Shown piece after piece: positions 2,193-52,524 of a stretch of DNA of 55,388 nt; the stretch's first letter is position 1, and every line of letters starts with the position of its first letter. The notes under the pieces were generated by a model. The model saw only the letters and a list, made by a program, of their open reading frames with translations. It was not told the DNA's origin and made no database searches. Location of the stretch: NCBI GenBank assembly GCA_022570935.1, contig JACZYU010000001.1, forward strand, positions 1 to 55,388, written 5' to 3'. Origin of the DNA: Planctomycetota bacterium (lineage in GTDB: Bacteria > Planctomycetota > Brocadiia > Brocadiales > Scalinduaceae). Both the position numbers and the translations under genes were made by a program.

Positions 2193-3755
2193 ATGATTGA
2201 GAATGAGGATTATTCTGATAGTTTTTGTACGCTGCATTATCGTGAGAGTGTCAGAAGATATTGTGGAGTTAAAGAAGATGGCGACCTCAGGTATAGCGCA
2301 AAAGGAAAGAAGATTAAGGAGCAGTTAGTAAAGTGTATATGGTCTGAACAGCTTTTCAAGAAGGAAAAACTGTATACTGAGGATGGATTAAGGATGGAGG
2401 TTATTTCATCCGGTGTATGGAATCTGGAAGAAGGTCCGGATTTCAAAGACGCTGAAATTCTTTTAGAAGGAAAGGGTGTTGTAAGGGGGGATGTTGAGAT
2501 ACATGTCTGTTCGGGCGATTGGATACGCCATGGGCACAGTAAACAAAAGGAGTATGAAGGTGTGTGCCTGCACGTCTTTATGTGGAATGACGGGAAGAAT
2601 AAATATGTTAAATTAAAGAACCGGTTGGTTCCGCAGTTAGAGCTTTATAATTACTTGAAATATAAATTGGACAAACTTGCCGATATGATCGATATCGAGA
2701 ACTATCCACACACCGGCAGCGCTAATGCCGGGCCTTGCCAGAAGAGACTGAGCGCAATCTCACTTGATGACAAATGGATTGGACACTTTCTTGATTATGC
2801 CGGTGATGAAAGGATATTGGTTAAGGCCGGCAGATTTGGAAAATGCCTGAATACGCAGACGTTTGAACAGGTCCTGTATGAAGCAATTATGGAGTCACTT
2901 GGTTATAAGAATAATAAAGAGCAGTTCAAACATTTGGGGACTATTGTTTCAATAAATGACATAAAAAGCTTAATACCATTGGATGTTTCCATACAGGAGA
3001 GAAGCAGGAAGATACAGGCACTATTATTTGGCATGTCAGGACTCTTGCCGAGTCAGATATCCAGATACGCAAGCGCTAAAGATAAGTATTCTCTTGAATA
3101 TATCAATGAAGTCGAACAGATATGGTCAGTAATCAAAAACGATATTAAAAGCAAACCGATGGATGGAGGGTTATGGAGTTTCAAGTATTCCAGGCCGGGA
3201 AATTATCCGACAAGGAGGATTGCTGCGATCAGCCGTCTCCTGGCAGAAAATTTTGAAACCGGGATATTCAGAGTAATATTAAAGTCTTTTGAGGAGAGAG
3301 ATAATAACAAGAGTGACATAGAAGGAATTAAGGCTATCATTAAAAATACAGAGTCTATCTTTTTAGAGCTTTATGATGAATACTGGTCCTTTTATTATAT
3401 ATTTGGAGGGAGAAGGTTGAAAATCAGGGGAAGGTTAATTGGCAAGGAACGGTCTTCCGTCATATTCATTAACATAATTATTCCGGTATTATTGGCATAC
3501 GCACGAAAAATGAATGATGTGGTATTAGAGGAAAGGTTGTTTAAGGCGTATAAGCTGCATTCAAAATTATCACCTAATAATATTACGAGGTTTATGAACT
3601 ATAGAATCCTGGGCAAAGATACACAGAAAAGAAACGTGGTGAATACGGCAAGACGCCAGCAGGGGCTTTTGCAGATATTTAAGGATTTTTGCGAAAGCGA
3701 TGATATTGCATGCAAGAGATGTGTACTTCTTCTATCAATTAATGCAATAGTGTAA
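2193..3755 (+). CDS. DUF2851 family protein
   Basis: The roughly 520-residue product matches the DUF2851 pattern. Near the N-terminus it has SGVWNLEEGPDFKDAEI, then GDVEIHV, SGDWIRHGHS and a LHVF strand. A helical region of unknown role fills the rest. The GPDFxxA / GDVEIH / HGH motifs suggest a nuclease-like or metal-binding fold, but no activity is established for the family. ATG 2193 is chosen because GGGAGG (2181-2186) lies six bases upstream; an earlier in-frame ATG at 2139 has no ribosome site. Such genes occur widely in Bacteroidetes and Planctomycetes. The gene is complete. Confidence 0.8.
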   Translation: MIENEDYSDSFCTLHYRESVRRYCGVKEDGDLRYSAKGKKIKEQLVKCIWSEQLFKKEKLYTEDGLRMEVISSGVWNLEEGPDFKDAEILLEGKGVVRGDVEIHVCSGDWIRHGHSKQKEYEGVCLHVFMWNDGKNKYVKLKNRLVPQLELYNYLKYKLDKLADMIDIENYPHTGSANAGPCQKRLSAISLDDKWIGHFLDYAGDERILVKAGRFGKCLNTQTFEQVLYEAIMESLGYKNNKEQFKHLGTIVSINDIKSLIPLDVSIQERSRKIQALLFGMSGLLPSQISRYASAKDKYSLEYINEVEQIWSVIKNDIKSKPMDGGLWSFKYSRPGNYPTRRIAAISRLLAENFETGIFRVILKSFEERDNNKSDIEGIKAIIKNTESIFLELYDEYWSFYYIFGGRRLKIRGRLIGKERSSVIFINIIIPVLLAYARKMNDVVLEERLFKAYKLHSKLSPNNITRFMNYRILGKDTQKRNVVNTARRQQGLLQIFKDFCESDDIACKRCVLLLSINAIV

Positions 3756-3795
3756 TCCCATTGCGTTCTGGCATCCGGAGAGAATGAAAAAGAAG

Positions 3796-3958
3796 GGTTA
3801 TCACGCGGAGTCGCACTTGCCTACCGGCAGGCAGGGAGATCGCCAAGATAACAAAGTCTAAAAAAGCAATTAAAGATAAAAGTTTTATAATCATTTGCGT
3901 TCTTGGCGCCTTTTACTCGTCCTCGGCGCCTTTAAGTCCGGGGAGCTTGGCGTGAGGA
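3796..3958. repeat. Composite palindromic repeat with nested modules
   Basis: Outer arms resembling TCACGCGGAGTCGC and the TTTGCGTTCTTGGCG / GGCGTGA family form a long imperfect palindrome. A related element without these insertions lies at 29183-29270. Inside the left arm sits a GC palindrome (about 3818-3836, CCTACCGGCAGGCAGG). Inside the right arm sits a copy of the CCTCGGCGC...GTCCGGGG module (3919-3944). Confidence 0.6.
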
Positions 3959-3983
3959 TTATTTAGTAGTTGGTGAAGAGAAA

Positions 3984-8907: not shown

Positions 8908-9047
8908 TTAAAGGCTGTATATATTTATAAATACCGAATTTTTAACAATTTCATTCTAACAGTTTTTTATGTAAACTCAAGTTATAATATTTGCACAGCT
9001 TGGCAGAGGCGGAACCGGAAAAAGTGATAGATGCTAGACACGAATTA

Positions 9048-9245
9048 CCCACGGACAAAAAGCGCCGAGGGCAAGGAAAAGGCACGAATTGGCACGAATA
9101 GATATCTAAATAAATTCTGGCTCGTCCAAGTTGTAAAATGAAAACCTGCGGTTTTCAAACTTTCCTTATTGGTATACAGAATAGAAGGCAGGCCTCTCTT
9201 TCGAGAGGATTCCAATTCTGGAATCCTCTCGAAAGAGAGGTTGTT
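9048..9245 (-). repeat. E-type repeat element, copy B
   Basis: On the minus strand this block reads a 48-base palindrome (9193-9240, arms CCTCTCTTTCGAGAGGATTC), a spacer, then AATAAGGAAAGTTTGAAAACC, ending in a copy of the CTCGGCGCTTTTTGTCCG module at 9048-9076. A second copy lies on the plus strand at 16380-16530. The two align base for base over more than 100 bases, with one 27-base difference. The small reading frame across it is shared only because of the repeat and is not a gene. Confidence 0.75.
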
Positions 9246-10860: not shown

Positions 10861-11293
10861 ATTAGCTCACTTCCTGTCTGCCCCTGCCTGTCGGCAGACA
10901 GGGACAGGCAGGCGGGCTAACCTCCACACACAACGTATTCAATACCAACCCGCCCGGATGAATCCGTTCGGACGGTTTTGAATGTTCATATAACCATTTT
11001 TTGCTAGTAAGCCGTGGACGTGGAAGGCTAAAGCCATTCCGCTACACCCCGCTAAGCGTGGTACAGTTGGTAATCGCAGTCCGGCCGCAGGGCACCTGAG
11101 GACGACCCTGTGGGCCAGTTCACAGATCCGACTCAGTGTCGGGATGCGCCTAGCTCGAGAAAGAGGACAATAGGTGGATTTATATCTTGTATGGTAGGAG
11201 TTGTCCAATTTTGCTACTACACAGTCTGCTTAAGAGTAGTCTCATTTTGCGAAGCAAAACTAAGAAGTTAGCGACTGAAAGGAGCTAAGTTCT
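10861..11293. repeat. Intergenic repeat cluster
   Basis: The gap holds a nested GC palindrome at about 10874-10917 (core CTGCCTGTCGGCAGACAGG), a second palindrome near 10951-10974, and a copy of the C module (about 11095-11145, CCTGAGGACGACCCTGTGGG). The segment TTAGCTCACTTCCTG before the first palindrome recurs near 12818. No gene is recognised before the DICT-like ORF. Confidence 0.55.
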
Positions 11294-11872
11294 GTGTTAA
11301 ACAAAAACAACATTTTTCATGATCTGATTTTAGAAGTGAGGGCATTAACAGAATCTCACGATCCAAGTCTACTTTTTGAGGATCTCCATACAGATTCGCT
11401 TGATGGTGAATATCATTTTACGACATCAAAGAAAACATTGTTTATGATGAGCAGGGTTATCGAAGATTCGTTGAGGATACATAAAAAACGGTGTACATTA
11501 TATTCCGGATTTCAGGAATTAAGCAGATTCAAGGAACACAGTGAAAGATATGCAAAATTAGCGAGCTATGCTGATCAAATATTCATTATAGGCATTGCAG
11601 ACGCACCTATTGAAAAGATAGCGGACAACGTTCATATTATGACAAAGAATGCGGACATAATTCGCGAAAATTGGATATCGATAATTAAAAATCATAATAT
11701 CCATATTACGCTGATAGCACAGGAAGTACCTTCTCAGGAGCATCACGAAAGATATGTTGGTTTTTACACAAACAGTAAGTCTCTTACCGAAAAAGCCGTA
11801 AACGTTTTAAATGAAAAAAATATACTGAGTGATGCCACAATCTCAGGTAAGCAAACCTATTTTAATATTTAG
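11294..11872 (+). CDS. DICT-like sensory domain protein
   Basis: The 192-residue soluble protein resembles the DICT domain found in diguanylate cyclases and two-component proteins. It has an SRVIED helix, the block TLYSGFQELSRFKEHSERY, and later IRENW and YVGFYTNS blocks. No output domain is attached, so a stand-alone sensor or regulatory partner is most likely. The start is GTG 11294 with GAAAGGAG (11277-11284) nine bases upstream. The stop codon uses the first two bases of a T-type inverted-repeat element, so the element forms the 3' end of the message and may protect or terminate it. Confidence 0.55.
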   Translation: MLNKNNIFHDLILEVRALTESHDPSLLFEDLHTDSLDGEYHFTTSKKTLFMMSRVIEDSLRIHKKRCTLYSGFQELSRFKEHSERYAKLASYADQIFIIGIADAPIEKIADNVHIMTKNADIIRENWISIIKNHNIHITLIAQEVPSQEHHERYVGFYTNSKSLTEKAVNVLNEKNILSDATISGKQTYFNI

Positions 11873-11927
11873 TCTATAAGTCGACAATTCCTTGTTTTTT
11901 TGCTTGAAAATTGTCACCTTATAGACT
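11871..11927. repeat. T-type small inverted-repeat element, copy 1
   Basis: A 57-base element is bounded by inverted termini AGTCTATAAGTCGACAATT and AATTGTCACCTTATAGACT. The termini match outside and differ at two or three inner positions. Related copies are at 29400-29477 and 44915-44966. It resembles a very short MITE or mobile hairpin. Confidence 0.7.
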
Positions 11928-11968
11928 TGCCACACCGTTTGGTGTGTTAATGAAAAACGTTTAATATA

Positions 11969-12667
11969 ATGCAGGATAAGAAAATAAAAGTTCTCGCTAT
12001 AGGCACACATCCTGATGACGTTGAAGGGGGGATGGGGGGCAGTATAATAAAATTTCTGAAACTTGGCCATGAAGTTCATATTTTAGACCTTACAAACGGA
12101 GAACCCACACCTCATGGTACTCCGGAAATAAGGAGTGAAGAATGCAAAGAGGCAACGGCTTTACTTGGCGTAACAGACAGAACGGCTCTGGGTCTGCCAA
12201 ACCGTTATCTTTTTGACAATACAGAATCGAGAAATACGGTAGCCGAGGTTATTCGCAGGGTGAGGCCGGACATCATGTTTCTGCCTTATTGGGAGGATGC
12301 CCACCCTGATCATATACAGGCAACACAGATTTGTGAGGCTGCAAGATTTTATGCAAAGCTGACAAAAACCGATTTAGCAGGCGAACCGTGGTATCCCGGG
12401 CGTATTCTTTATTATCTGTGGTCTCACCAGAGGGTGCATCTGGAGCCGGCCTTTATTATTGATATTAGTGATGAGTTTGAAAGCAAGGTTGAAGTAGTAA
12501 AATCATATAAGTCTCAATTTGCATTTAATGAAGAGAGATGGAAAGACGTGAATGGGAAATTGCATTCATACGGCCAGTATTACGGGTCATTGATTGGAAC
12601 GCAATACGGGGAGCCATTTGCGAGCCGTGAAAAATTGGGGTTGAGAGACATAAGGGACTTGGTATGA
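11969..12667 (+). CDS. PIG-L/BshB1-like deacetylase
   Basis: The 232-residue protein has the zinc motif GTHPDDVEGGMGG near the N-terminus, DLTNGEPTPHGTPEIRSEE in the second block and the metal/catalytic AHPDH near residue 112. This pattern is that of the BshB1/MshB branch of LmbE deacetylases, which remove acetyl from N-acetylglucosamine conjugates such as the bacillithiol precursor. No bshA or bshC is nearby, so the substrate is uncertain. The ribosome site is weak. The gene follows the DICT-like gene and the T element after about 40 bases. Confidence 0.7.
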   Translation: MQDKKIKVLAIGTHPDDVEGGMGGSIIKFLKLGHEVHILDLTNGEPTPHGTPEIRSEECKEATALLGVTDRTALGLPNRYLFDNTESRNTVAEVIRRVRPDIMFLPYWEDAHPDHIQATQICEAARFYAKLTKTDLAGEPWYPGRILYYLWSHQRVHLEPAFIIDISDEFESKVEVVKSYKSQFAFNEERWKDVNGKLHSYGQYYGSLIGTQYGEPFASREKLGLRDIRDLV

Positions 12668-16159: not shown

Positions 16160-16379
16160 GTGAAGGATCAGGTGTTGATCAATTAGTAAAAATTCTACGA
16201 AGTTAAAGAGTGAGTTGAAAAAGGTGTTATATTTTTTAAAACTGGCCGTATAACAGGCCTGGTTACATCTCACACATACCCCTTAAAGAAAAATGCTTAA
16301 TGCTTGTCCTCGTGCAAATGGGGAACAAATCCAACAACTTTTATAAGTTAGCTATCATTTGCTACTTAAACATGACCAG
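16160..16379. other. Intergenic, AT-rich, before the E element
   Basis: No gene, terminator with T tract or promoter of good quality is seen between hflC and the E-type repeat at 16380. Confidence 0.4.
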
Positions 16380-16530
16380 CCTCTTTTTCGAGAGGATTCC
16401 AGAATTGGAATCCTCTCGAAAGAGAGGTCTGCGTTCTAATCTATGTACTAATAAGGGAAAGTCCTCGGCGCTTTTTGTCCGGGGAAAGTTTGAAAACCGT
16501 AGGTTTTCATTTTACAACCTGGCTGAACCT
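16380..16530 (+). repeat. E-type repeat element, copy A, with inserted F module
   Basis: This is the plus-strand copy of the element at 9048-9245. It has the 48-base palindrome (16380-16427), the spacer with AATAAGGGAAA and the GTTTGAAAACCGTAGGTT segment. Relative to copy B it carries 27 extra bases (16461-16487) that are the F module, flanked by GGAAA on both sides. The related reading frame is a repeat artefact. The stretch from 16531 to 16702 holds no gene. Confidence 0.75.
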
Positions 16531-16702
16531 GAACATACGTGGGATAAGCTCTGCTTTGCTTAAGATATCCATCCCTTTTTTGGTTCTGGCTTGGCCAGGT
16601 TGTGTTGTGTTGATAAACTGCTATTTTAAATATATCAAATCGCTGATTTTATTACAGCCCTCATTAGTATGAACGTAAACAGTCTTCCTTTGATTAAGAT
16701 TT

Positions 16703-29399: not shown

Positions 29400-29477
29400 A
29401 GTCTATAAGGTGACAATCTTCAGTCAAAAAAAGCCTGTCTGCCGACAGGCAGGCAAGAAATTGTCGACTTATAGACT
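29400..29477. repeat. T-type element, copy 2, with inserted P palindrome
   Basis: Termini AGTCTATAAGGTGACAAT and ATTGTCGACTTATAGACT enclose a loop that carries a 20-base GC-rich palindrome, CTGTCTGCCGACAGGCAGGC, absent at the equivalent site in copy 3. Otherwise copies 2 and 3 agree across CAGTCAAAAAAAGC and AAGAAATTGTCGACTTA. Confidence 0.75.
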
Positions 29478-29487
29478 AAGTAATTCG

Positions 29488-43170: not shown

Positions 43171-44676
43171 TCAATTAAAACCCGGGTAACATGTAATTCC
43201 GTGTTCGTAAATATCAATACCTGTGTTTTCTTCACTGACCGGCACTCTCAGACCAACGGTCTTTTTTAATATATAGAATAATAAATAACCAAGACCAAGA
43301 GTCCAGATTATTAGTACAATACATCCGATGAATTGAGATAGCAATTGCCACCCTGATCCTGTTATCAATCCCTTAACACCAAGATAAGAACCATCGGCAA
43401 ATATACCCACGGAGAGTAATCCCCACAGGCCGTTTGCCCCGTGGACAGAGATTGCACCTACTGGGTCATCGATTCTCAGCTTATTCTCTATAAGGTATAG
43501 GCTTGCCTTTAATATGATGATGGCAATAAAGCCAATAGCAACTGCTGCCCAGTGCGATACGTAGGCACCGGAAGCCGTAATCGCCACACAGCCGGCCAGT
43601 GCCCCATTACATGTCATAACGATATCATATTTTCTCGTGCTATAATATGTGATGTACATAATTGCTATTGCCCCGGTACATGCGGCAAGAAAAGTGTTTG
43701 TTGCAATTATTGAAATCCTGAGATCTGTTGCACCCAATGTGCTTCCGGCATTGAAGCCAAACCATCCAAACAACAAAAACAGAGTTCCCAACACGACAAA
43801 AGAGAGGTTGTGGCCATGTATTATATTAGGTGTACCATTAGGATTGTACTTGCCAAACCTTGGACCTATCATCCATGCCCCGACCAGGGCAATTAATCCG
43901 CCTATACCATGAACCACTCCCGACCCGGCAAAATCCTTCATCCCTGAACCGAAGGGCAGGTTTGCAAGAAAGCCACCACCCCATACCCAATGGCCGTAAA
44001 CAGGATATATAATTCCGCAAAGAGCAATACTGCATAAAATATGAGTATTGAACTTGATTCGCTCGGCAACTGAACCTGCAATGATTGTGCAGGCAGCGGC
44101 GGCAAACATCATTTGAAACAGCCACAATTTTGAAGTAGAAAAATCAGAAGAACCGAATGAAAGGAAGAATCCACTGTAGCCAACGAGTAAGTTTCCCGAA
44201 TCCAACCCAAAGGCGAGGTAAGATCCTCCAAACATTAATGCAAAACCGAATGCCCAGAATACAATGGCACCAATACAGAAATCCATAAAACTCATTGCAA
44301 GGTAGTTTAAGGTATTCTTCTTTTGAATGAAACCGGCACCTAGAAACGCGAACCCTGCCTGCATATTAAATACAAGAAATCCGCATAACAATGTCCATGC
44401 AAGGTCTATGGATATCTTTACTCCACGAATATCGCTGATTTCTGAAGAGTAAATTGAGTAGCTGCTGGACATGTCAGAGGCTTCGGATGCATAAAAGGCG
44501 GTAAACAATAAACAGGCAGCAATAATGGGAGCCTTCCACGGACAAAAAACGCCCCTGCCCGTCCGGCAGGCGGGGAGGACTTTCCCCGGACAAAGAACGC
44601 CGAGGACTTTAATCCACCAGCGTCTTTCCTGTCTTATGTAGCCTTGCACTTTTGCGATAATACTGTATATTTGCAT
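43171..44676 (-). CDS. amt: Ammonium transporter Amt-E with a repeat-derived N-terminal insert
   Basis: The 501-residue protein is an Amt-A-type transporter. It has pore histidines in SGVVHGIGG and SVHGANGLWG, FADGSYLGV and the tail GIDIYEHGITCYPG. Before the signal-like hydrophobic stretch (APIIAACLLFTAFYASEA) stands a segment of about 27 residues (KVLGVLCPGKVLPACRTGRG...) encoded entirely by the repeat block at 44534-44608. Helix-1 begins around residue 88. The true start is uncertain: ATG 44676 is used, but an internal start after the insert cannot be excluded. There is no PII directly upstream; the PII at 45081-45419 follows the Amt-F gene instead. Confidence 0.85.
   Translation of the reverse strand: MQIYSIIAKVQGYIRQERRWWIKVLGVLCPGKVLPACRTGRGVFCPWKAPIIAACLLFTAFYASEASDMSSSYSIYSSEISDIRGVKISIDLAWTLLCGFLVFNMQAGFAFLGAGFIQKKNTLNYLAMSFMDFCIGAIVFWAFGFALMFGGSYLAFGLDSGNLLVGYSGFFLSFGSSDFSTSKLWLFQMMFAAAACTIIAGSVAERIKFNTHILCSIALCGIIYPVYGHWVWGGGFLANLPFGSGMKDFAGSGVVHGIGGLIALVGAWMIGPRFGKYNPNGTPNIIHGHNLSFVVLGTLFLLFGWFGFNAGSTLGATDLRISIIATNTFLAACTGAIAIMYITYYSTRKYDIVMTCNGALAGCVAITASGAYVSHWAAVAIGFIAIIILKASLYLIENKLRIDDPVGAISVHGANGLWGLLSVGIFADGSYLGVKGLITGSGWQLLSQFIGCIVLIIWTLGLGYLLFYILKKTVGLRVPVSEENTGIDIYEHGITCYPGFN
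44534..44608. repeat. Two F modules in tandem with a P palindrome inside the second
   Basis: On the minus strand two F modules (AAAGTCCTCGGCG...TTTGTCCGGGG) stand head to tail. The second is interrupted between GTCCTC and GGCG by a GC palindrome (44553-44574, core CTGCCCGTCCGGCAGG). The block lies inside the amt-E reading frame and keeps it open. Confidence 0.75.
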
Positions 44677-45080
44677 TGTAATTAATAAAACAGGCTCAAC
44701 CTTTCCGTGGACAGTCCGGGCGTTGCAGTACAGGTGAGGAGAAGTTAATCCGGTTGATGATATATTAACGAAAGGCTTTAGTCACTAATATGGTAACATT
44801 TTCCTGCATAAGAGTAAATGTGAAATTGCTGTCATACTTATGACCCAACCTGGCCGAGCCAGCCGCTAAAGACACCCCTGTAAGCAACTCAAGGTCCGCT
44901 CCAGGCGGGACCAAAAAGGTGATAATTTCCAGTCAAAAAAAGCAAGAAATTGTCGACTTAGAGACTAAATGAAAGGAGATCAGCGGTCTCTAATCAACGT
45001 AATACGTGATTCGAGACTCCACTGATCTCCCTTTCTCGATCTGATTAAACTCAAATATTCATTTCCAGAACCTGGTTGTC
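44677..45080. repeat. Intergenic with T element copy 3 and a hairpin
   Basis: A T-type element with a degenerate left end lies at 44915-44966; it lacks the P insert of copy 2. At 44976-45032 a hairpin with arms GGAGATCAG / CTGATCTCC and inner GTCTC/GAGAC pairs could end the leftward PII transcript. A degenerate C module may lie near 44872-44910. No gene is seen. Confidence 0.55.
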
Positions 45081-52205: not shown

Positions 52206-52524
52206 AGTGCATAAGTCAAAACTAAATTAAGATCTGAATCATAATAACCGTCATGATGTGTATTAACGTTTATGAAATATGTCCCTCCCCCTTTCTTTAA
52301 ACAAAACCCAAATGAGTGATTATTAAAAAACTTTCATCTTACATTGTGGTATCACGAAGCATGAATATGTGAGTTATTTTATACTGGATTCCCTGCGAAA
52401 GCAGGATATTTTATTCTCGCACACCCCTAAGGTCCAGTTTAGTGGGAAATTATGAAACAAAATGAATGTAAAAGCAAGTATAAAATTGACAGGATATGAT
52501 TGTTTGATGTGTAGTATTGTCTAG
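52206..52524. other. Intergenic, nothing recognised
   Basis: AT-rich sequence without a convincing gene, promoter or terminator. Confidence 0.35.

Follow-up and report, generated by a model that had tools for sequence, protein, structure and literature searches.

A 27-bp hairpin repeat with exact filled and empty sites, probably a non-autonomous REP-like mobile element of Candidatus Scalindua and its family

The window, by which we mean the whole stretch of DNA that was analysed (55,388 nucleotides), carries two copies of a composite repeat, termed E, together with several occurrences of a much shorter hairpin repeat, termed F, the coordinates of which are collected in Table 1. E combines several hairpin modules in a mosaic, is present in about 20 copies in this genome (on G000:C171, C142, C38, C127 and others) and, to judge from the orthologous sites of the congeners, is itself a lineage-specific insertion. 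One of its arms, CTCTCGAAAGAG, corresponds to the empty form of a site that is F-filled at G000:C150:8166 and C183:7099. Other palindromic cassettes occupy the hairpin loops of E at G000:C48:12108, C97:617, C183:12093, C83:14137 and in C142 and C171, as exemplified by the conversion of GAAAACC-GTA-GGTTTTC to GAAAACCGCCTGTCTGC..., so that nesting is a general feature and is not specific to F. The loop of the terminal hairpin is inverted in one E copy (C77:20502). A left-type hairpin module (AGTCTATAAG...CTTATAGACT) is found three times in the window (11866-11965, 29400-29482 and 44916-44970), in one case directly upstream of the ORF at 11969. At gathering scores, no Rfam match was obtained for the window.

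Table 1. Positions of E, F and related features in the window, and the compared host sites and protein genes.
Feature	Position	Strand	Remarks
F core with CTCGT foot	3921-3943	+	within 217-bp repeat tract 3755-3971; tract absent in G008
E copy B, empty at F site	8993-9235	-	junction at about 9163/9164; congeners have 22-126 bp of other sequence instead
F core	9049-9070	-	inside another repeat module, within terminal hairpin of E copy B
E copy A, composite insertion	16288-16603	+	missing from five congeners, which have 4-10 bp at the orthologous site
Near-perfect palindrome module of E, 48 nt	16380-16427	+	arm CTCTCGAAAGAG
Direct repeat GGGAAAGT, left copy	16455-16462	+	GGG of the host followed by the foot of the unit; AAGGGAAAGTTTG in empty E copies
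F unit, 27 bp	16458-16484	+	foot AAAGT 16458-16462 and 22-bp hairpin core 16463-16484; from filled versus empty E copies and 89 genome copies
Direct repeat GGGAAAGT, right copy	16482-16489	+	core end plus native host AAAGT
Hairpin module GAAAACC-GTA-GGTTTTC	16492-16508	+	loop occupied by a different palindrome in C48 and C97
Terminal hairpin of E, ACAACCTGGC ... GCCAGGTTGT	16514-16603	+	from sequence; compared with other E copies
Two-unit F array	44536-44610	-	unit 44584-44605 and a unit with nested CCTGCC...GGCAGG palindrome; GGTGGATT host repeat
CTGCGAAAGCAG	52393-52404	+	empty site of host hairpin; F-filled in Scalindua OFTM1 (L171)
Empty host sites			GGCGT^ATAATTATACGCC (GGCGT^ATAATT), GGTGGATT^AAGCG, CTCTCGA^AAGAGAGG, CTGCGA^AAGCAG, CCCGAGG^ATAACTGC
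ATP-dependent DNA ligase gene	C247:902-1852	-	Pfam; one F unit in frame, 9 residues
Hemerythrin gene	C56:21437-21892		Pfam; two F units in frame, 54 bp = 18 residues

Copy A of E reads AATAAGGG-AAAGTCCTCGGCGCTTTTTGTCCGGGG-AAAGTTTGAAAACC, with AAAGTCCTCGGCGCTTTTTGTCCGGGG representing the F unit, and copy B (minus strand) reads AATAAGG-AAAGTTTGAAAACC without the unit, being one G shorter than the usual empty E allele. The initial annotation had described 27 bases present in copy A and missing from copy B, with GGAAA occurring twice in the former and once in the latter, and both descriptions agree with a direct reading of the two copies. The further F modules that it had listed are likewise real and lie at 3921, 9049 and 44584, the stretch 44534-44608 corresponding to a two-unit array. 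Genome-wide, the AAAGTTTGAAAACC junction was found in 20 E copies, and alignment of the filled (9/20) with the empty ones (11/20) revealed no intermediates. Seven of the nine filled copies harbor a single unit as an exact 27-bp insert, identical except for one base in C97, the remaining two containing either two units or a single unit that holds a nested palindrome. The earlier proposal that this small piece behaves as a unit is upheld, since it is either cleanly present or cleanly missing, both at E and at unrelated sites, polarised gains in genes included.

In E copy A, the unit consists of AAAGT followed by CCTCGGCGCTTTTTGTCCGGGG, exactly 27 bp, and the mobile length of 22 bases given previously has to be revised accordingly, as the foot travels with the core. 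A pattern search of the whole genome (2.52 Mb, a fragmented draft estimated to be 82% complete) returned 89 strict F copies, divided 45 to 44 between the two strands; the reversed control pattern gave no match in the genome, and the number of chance matches expected in the window was 0.00 (100 shuffles). The hairpin stem comprises 7 bp (TCCTCGG / CCGGGGA) including a fixed T•G wobble and, among 88 cores, is very uniform, with the wobble conserved and few decayed copies. The feet of these cores are AAAGT (58) or CTTGT (19), the rest being minor variants. Since the conserved T•G wobble turns into A•C on the complement, the strand as written folds better, both as RNA (z of -2.97 versus -1.25) and as DNA (-4.3 versus -2.1 kcal/mol), the DNA hairpin being weak (z of -1.40).

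Most F loci (61/72) contain a single unit, and the remaining ones are direct arrays, none of them an inverted doublet, giving array sizes of 1, 2, 3 and 5 units. The linker AAAGT is present at all 16 tandem F-F junctions, and tandem units are spaced by 27 bp (n = 11), 28 bp (n = 4) or 26 bp (n = 1). Because the foot is identical to this linker, the cut points of F are uncertain by about one base in either direction. F is nested inside F at C95:4877 and C113:4840. In addition, around twelve loci have a 21-bp palindrome, CCCGCCTGCCGGACGGGCAGG, placed cleanly between the CCTC and the GGCG of F (G000:C5, C14, C32, C75, C187, C198 and C247, and 44536-44581 of the window). F is mainly extragenic, with 63 of the 88 cores located outside any ORF of at least 100 aa; the other 25 overlap such an ORF, several of these ORFs being short and possibly spurious.

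Filled and empty sites differing by a 27-bp step (28 bp where the loop is one base longer) were found in at least five further host repeats, the stretches used for this comparison being enriched for F loci. Depending on the copy, the CCCGAGG^ATAACTGC host contains 0, 1, 2, 3 or 5 units. At the GGCGT^ATAATT, GGTGGATT^AAGCG and CCCGAGG^ATAACTGC sites, as well as at the ligase site described below, the foot (AAAGT/CTTGT) arrives with the unit. As these empty hosts lack the foot, the flanking repeat observed in E is the unit's foot lying beside a native AAAG.

F is also encountered within protein-coding genes, the Pfam domains of F-bearing ORFs being ligase, hemerythrin, phosphofructokinase and GemA. 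In the ligase gene, exactly 27 bp are absent from all eight congeners with an aligned orthologue (G001-G007 and G012), and the empty site, GTTCGCCGG^AAGGGC, has been filled without target duplication. The 18-residue F stretch of hemerythrin is missing in 19 homologues. The C-terminal tail of phosphofructokinase (C140) contains three F units in the genome analysed here, one in G011 and none in G001, and in G009 one unit is interrupted by a second F, resulting in an early stop. Since the congeners are empty at these gene sites, gain is favoured over loss there. At the orthologous site of C140:3128, the relatives diverge right at the repeat tract and provide no clean comparison, and for the F sites of C78 usable orthologues were not found. 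In all four protein genes examined (G000:C140, C56, C247 and C113), F is antisense to the ORF, and the peptides thereby encoded are polar (e.g. SPDKKRRGQ, DFPRTKGAE).

Taken together, and as judged from the alignment of filled with empty sites, these results show that F has entered diverse sites as an exact unit, in some cases in frame within genes, with a target duplication limited to 0-1 base, and that after insertion its copy number changes in tandem and further palindromes, F included, enter. A very small non-coding unit thus seems to be spreading, either by itself or with assistance.

The strict F pattern was found in 15 of 59 relatives, all belonging to one family (f1), with copy numbers ranging from 0 in G002, 1 in G004 and 3 in G010 through 57 in G003 and 91 in G015 up to 113 in G009. 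In a search of 392 genomes of the phylum, one genome outside the family contained a single match, with an unrelated loop, which is probably due to chance. Among the matches listed for named genomes, those in which F occupies the same repeat contexts belong to Candidatus Scalindua assemblies, which suggests that the window derives from an anammox planctomycete of this group; as the listed matches include many chance hits in high-GC genomes, the distribution is based chiefly on the searches of the family and of the phylum. The open-licence literature that was searched yielded no account of such repeats in anammox bacteria. A viral origin of F was rejected; 69 viral contigs match the loose pattern, most of them without being demonstrated to carry genuine F units. 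A 56-kb contig assigned to viruses (IMGVR_UViG_3300037587_000914; L247, L280) contains three F-like units and may be host DNA or derive from a virus of a related bacterium.

Overall, these results are best accommodated by a model in which Candidatus Scalindua and its family harbor F as a REP-like, non-autonomous mobile repeat that moves by an HUH-type single-strand mechanism, a reading to which we assign a probability of about 0.62. The guide-like foot, the strand-asymmetric hairpin and the duplication-free insertion resemble the substrates of HUH enzymes (IS200/IS605, TnpA_REP; PMC8266576), and it is from these features that we infer the mechanism. F would move as a single-stranded hairpin, a trans-acting HUH enzyme (Y1/TnpA_REP-like) would act on one of its strands, and the tandem arrays with a 27-28 bp spacing would arise by slippage or recombination between units.

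With respect to the enzyme, the genome encodes 12 Y1_Tnp genes, none of which is flanked by F in the 82% complete assembly, from which a linked gene could be missing. Several of these genes possess their own inverted repeats, unrelated to F. Positions 11020-11070 of the window (TGGAAGGCTAAAGCCATTCCGCTAC) match the flank of one Y1_Tnp gene (G000:C80; L038), with which this sequence likely forms a RAYT-REP pair unrelated to F. Neither a GTAG nor a CGTC tag was found at the feet of the 88 cores, no fixed target motif was seen at F sites, and no cognate enzyme was found among the 12 Y1_Tnp genes. F was not located at the centre of complementary flanks in excess of permuted flanks (3.58 versus 3.67), and insertion into hairpin loops therefore holds for several host repeats and is not a demonstrated rule. 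A farther-reaching proposal, which we put forward tentatively and consider rather doubtful, is that a single 27-bp hairpin with its 5-nt foot may alone be a complete substrate for bacterial copy-and-insert, able to enter both its own copies and, in frame, core genes without target duplication, the enzyme in question being one that does not belong to the known RAYT-REP pairs.

The main rival to the HUH-type mechanism that we favour is microhomology-mediated template switching in replication, whereby short hairpin stretches would be copied between sites at 1-9 shared bases without a dedicated enzyme. Because several targets share foot bases (GGGAAAGT in E, and GAAAG in the CTCTCGAAAGAG and CTGCGAAAGCAG hairpins), this explanation retains a real, if minor, chance of being correct. 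The hemerythrin junction, moreover, reads GAGGACTTT, and many different palindromes are nested mutually, as general copying would give. However, template switching predicts variable ends, whereas the observed ends are constant to within one base across unrelated hosts, and no more than one base is shared at the ligase and GGCGT^ATAATT sites.

A less probable alternative applies to the E site, where the unit might be ancestral and repeatedly lost by deletion between the GGGAAAGT repeats, or gene-converted among E copies, in which case E would be uninformative on insertion. The unit is indeed bordered on both sides by 8-bp direct repeats, and the weakly resolved E tree does not separate filled from empty copies, requiring at least seven changes (7 inferred, unclustered; 344 of 500 label shuffles are as low), so that repeated gain, loss or conversion is needed at E. 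This scenario nevertheless leaves unexplained the ligase, hemerythrin and phosphofructokinase sites, at which the congeners are empty, as well as the hosts that lack AAAG when empty; furthermore, congeners contain at most one strict E match each, and the single copies in G002, G004 and G009 are all empty.

It is more improbable still that F is a functional RNA or DNA site (an mRNA processing or stability hairpin, or a protein binding site) kept by selection, its dispersal reflecting function over mobility. The uniform stem, the conserved wobble, the scarcity of decayed copies and the stability of one strand as RNA would be in line with such a role, but the in-frame ligase and hemerythrin copies, the nesting of F in F and the near absence of F from G002, G004 and G010 fit a selfish repeat better.

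Hardly any weight can be given to transposition with a staggered-cut duplication of a 5-bp target (GGAAA), as advanced in the initial annotation. Copies A and B give this picture when compared alone, but in all other hosts compared the repeat belongs to the unit as its foot, the foot enters empty hosts without GGAAA, no duplication exists at the ligase insertion, which already refutes this model unless the ligase locus is exceptional, and the GGAAA pair of copy A is accounted for by the foot plus the native AAAG. The direct repeat at E, previously reported as five bases, is also longer, namely GGGAAAGT, with 8 bases shared in most empty E copies.

Among known systems, F differs from MITEs and other DDE-type elements by the lack of target duplication at the ligase site and the host repeats. 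It resembles IS200/IS605-type elements in its hairpin, foot and absence of duplication, but neither a target motif nor a cognate enzyme was found. Rickettsia palindromic elements, of about 150 bp (PMC10969869), are likewise palindromes located in frame in ordinary protein genes that they leave unbroken, F being much shorter with 27 bp, or 9 codons, per unit; F also shows one way in which ordinary enzymes gain residues in steps of nine. Similar to E and F, the pneumococcal BOX element (boxA-boxB-boxC) is a larger composite with 0-n copies of a small internal module, and BOX repeats are inserted into one another (PMC3049150); boxB, however, belongs to BOX, whereas F also occurs alone and in many unrelated hosts. 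Small mobile merging hairpins are further known as the GC clusters of yeast mitochondria (GC42, GC18) and the hairpin repeats of sponge mitochondria, where sister strains likewise differ in having a site filled or empty (PMC4478555, PMC2800124), although GC clusters are organellar, unrelated in sequence and flanked by AG or ACT direct repeats.

The closest kind to F is that of the REPs. Like F, REP, BIME and REPIN sequences measure 20-40 bp, form a single imperfect hairpin, reach high copy numbers and are mostly intergenic, and REPs share with F a strand-asymmetric mismatch, an unpaired motif 5' of the hairpin and tandem clusters; REPs nested in palindromes and within genes are also on record (PMC3733652). 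Unlike REP/RAYT systems, F carries no GTAG/CGTC tag and no flanking RAYT gene, and its arrays are direct, head-to-tail and spaced by 27-28 bp, whereas REP dimers are seldom head-to-tail (PMC3733652). For REPINs, mobility is attributed to the inverted doublet, and singlets are regarded as remnants (PMC3116915), whereas in F it is the single hairpin that inserts. Small palindromes of the REP type are usually studied as old, fixed sequences, with single REPs called defunct remnants; here, a single 27-bp hairpin presents many filled and empty pairs, several of them polarised by sister species and some within genes, so that the minimum size of a mobile DNA unit, and what moves such a unit, can now be tested.
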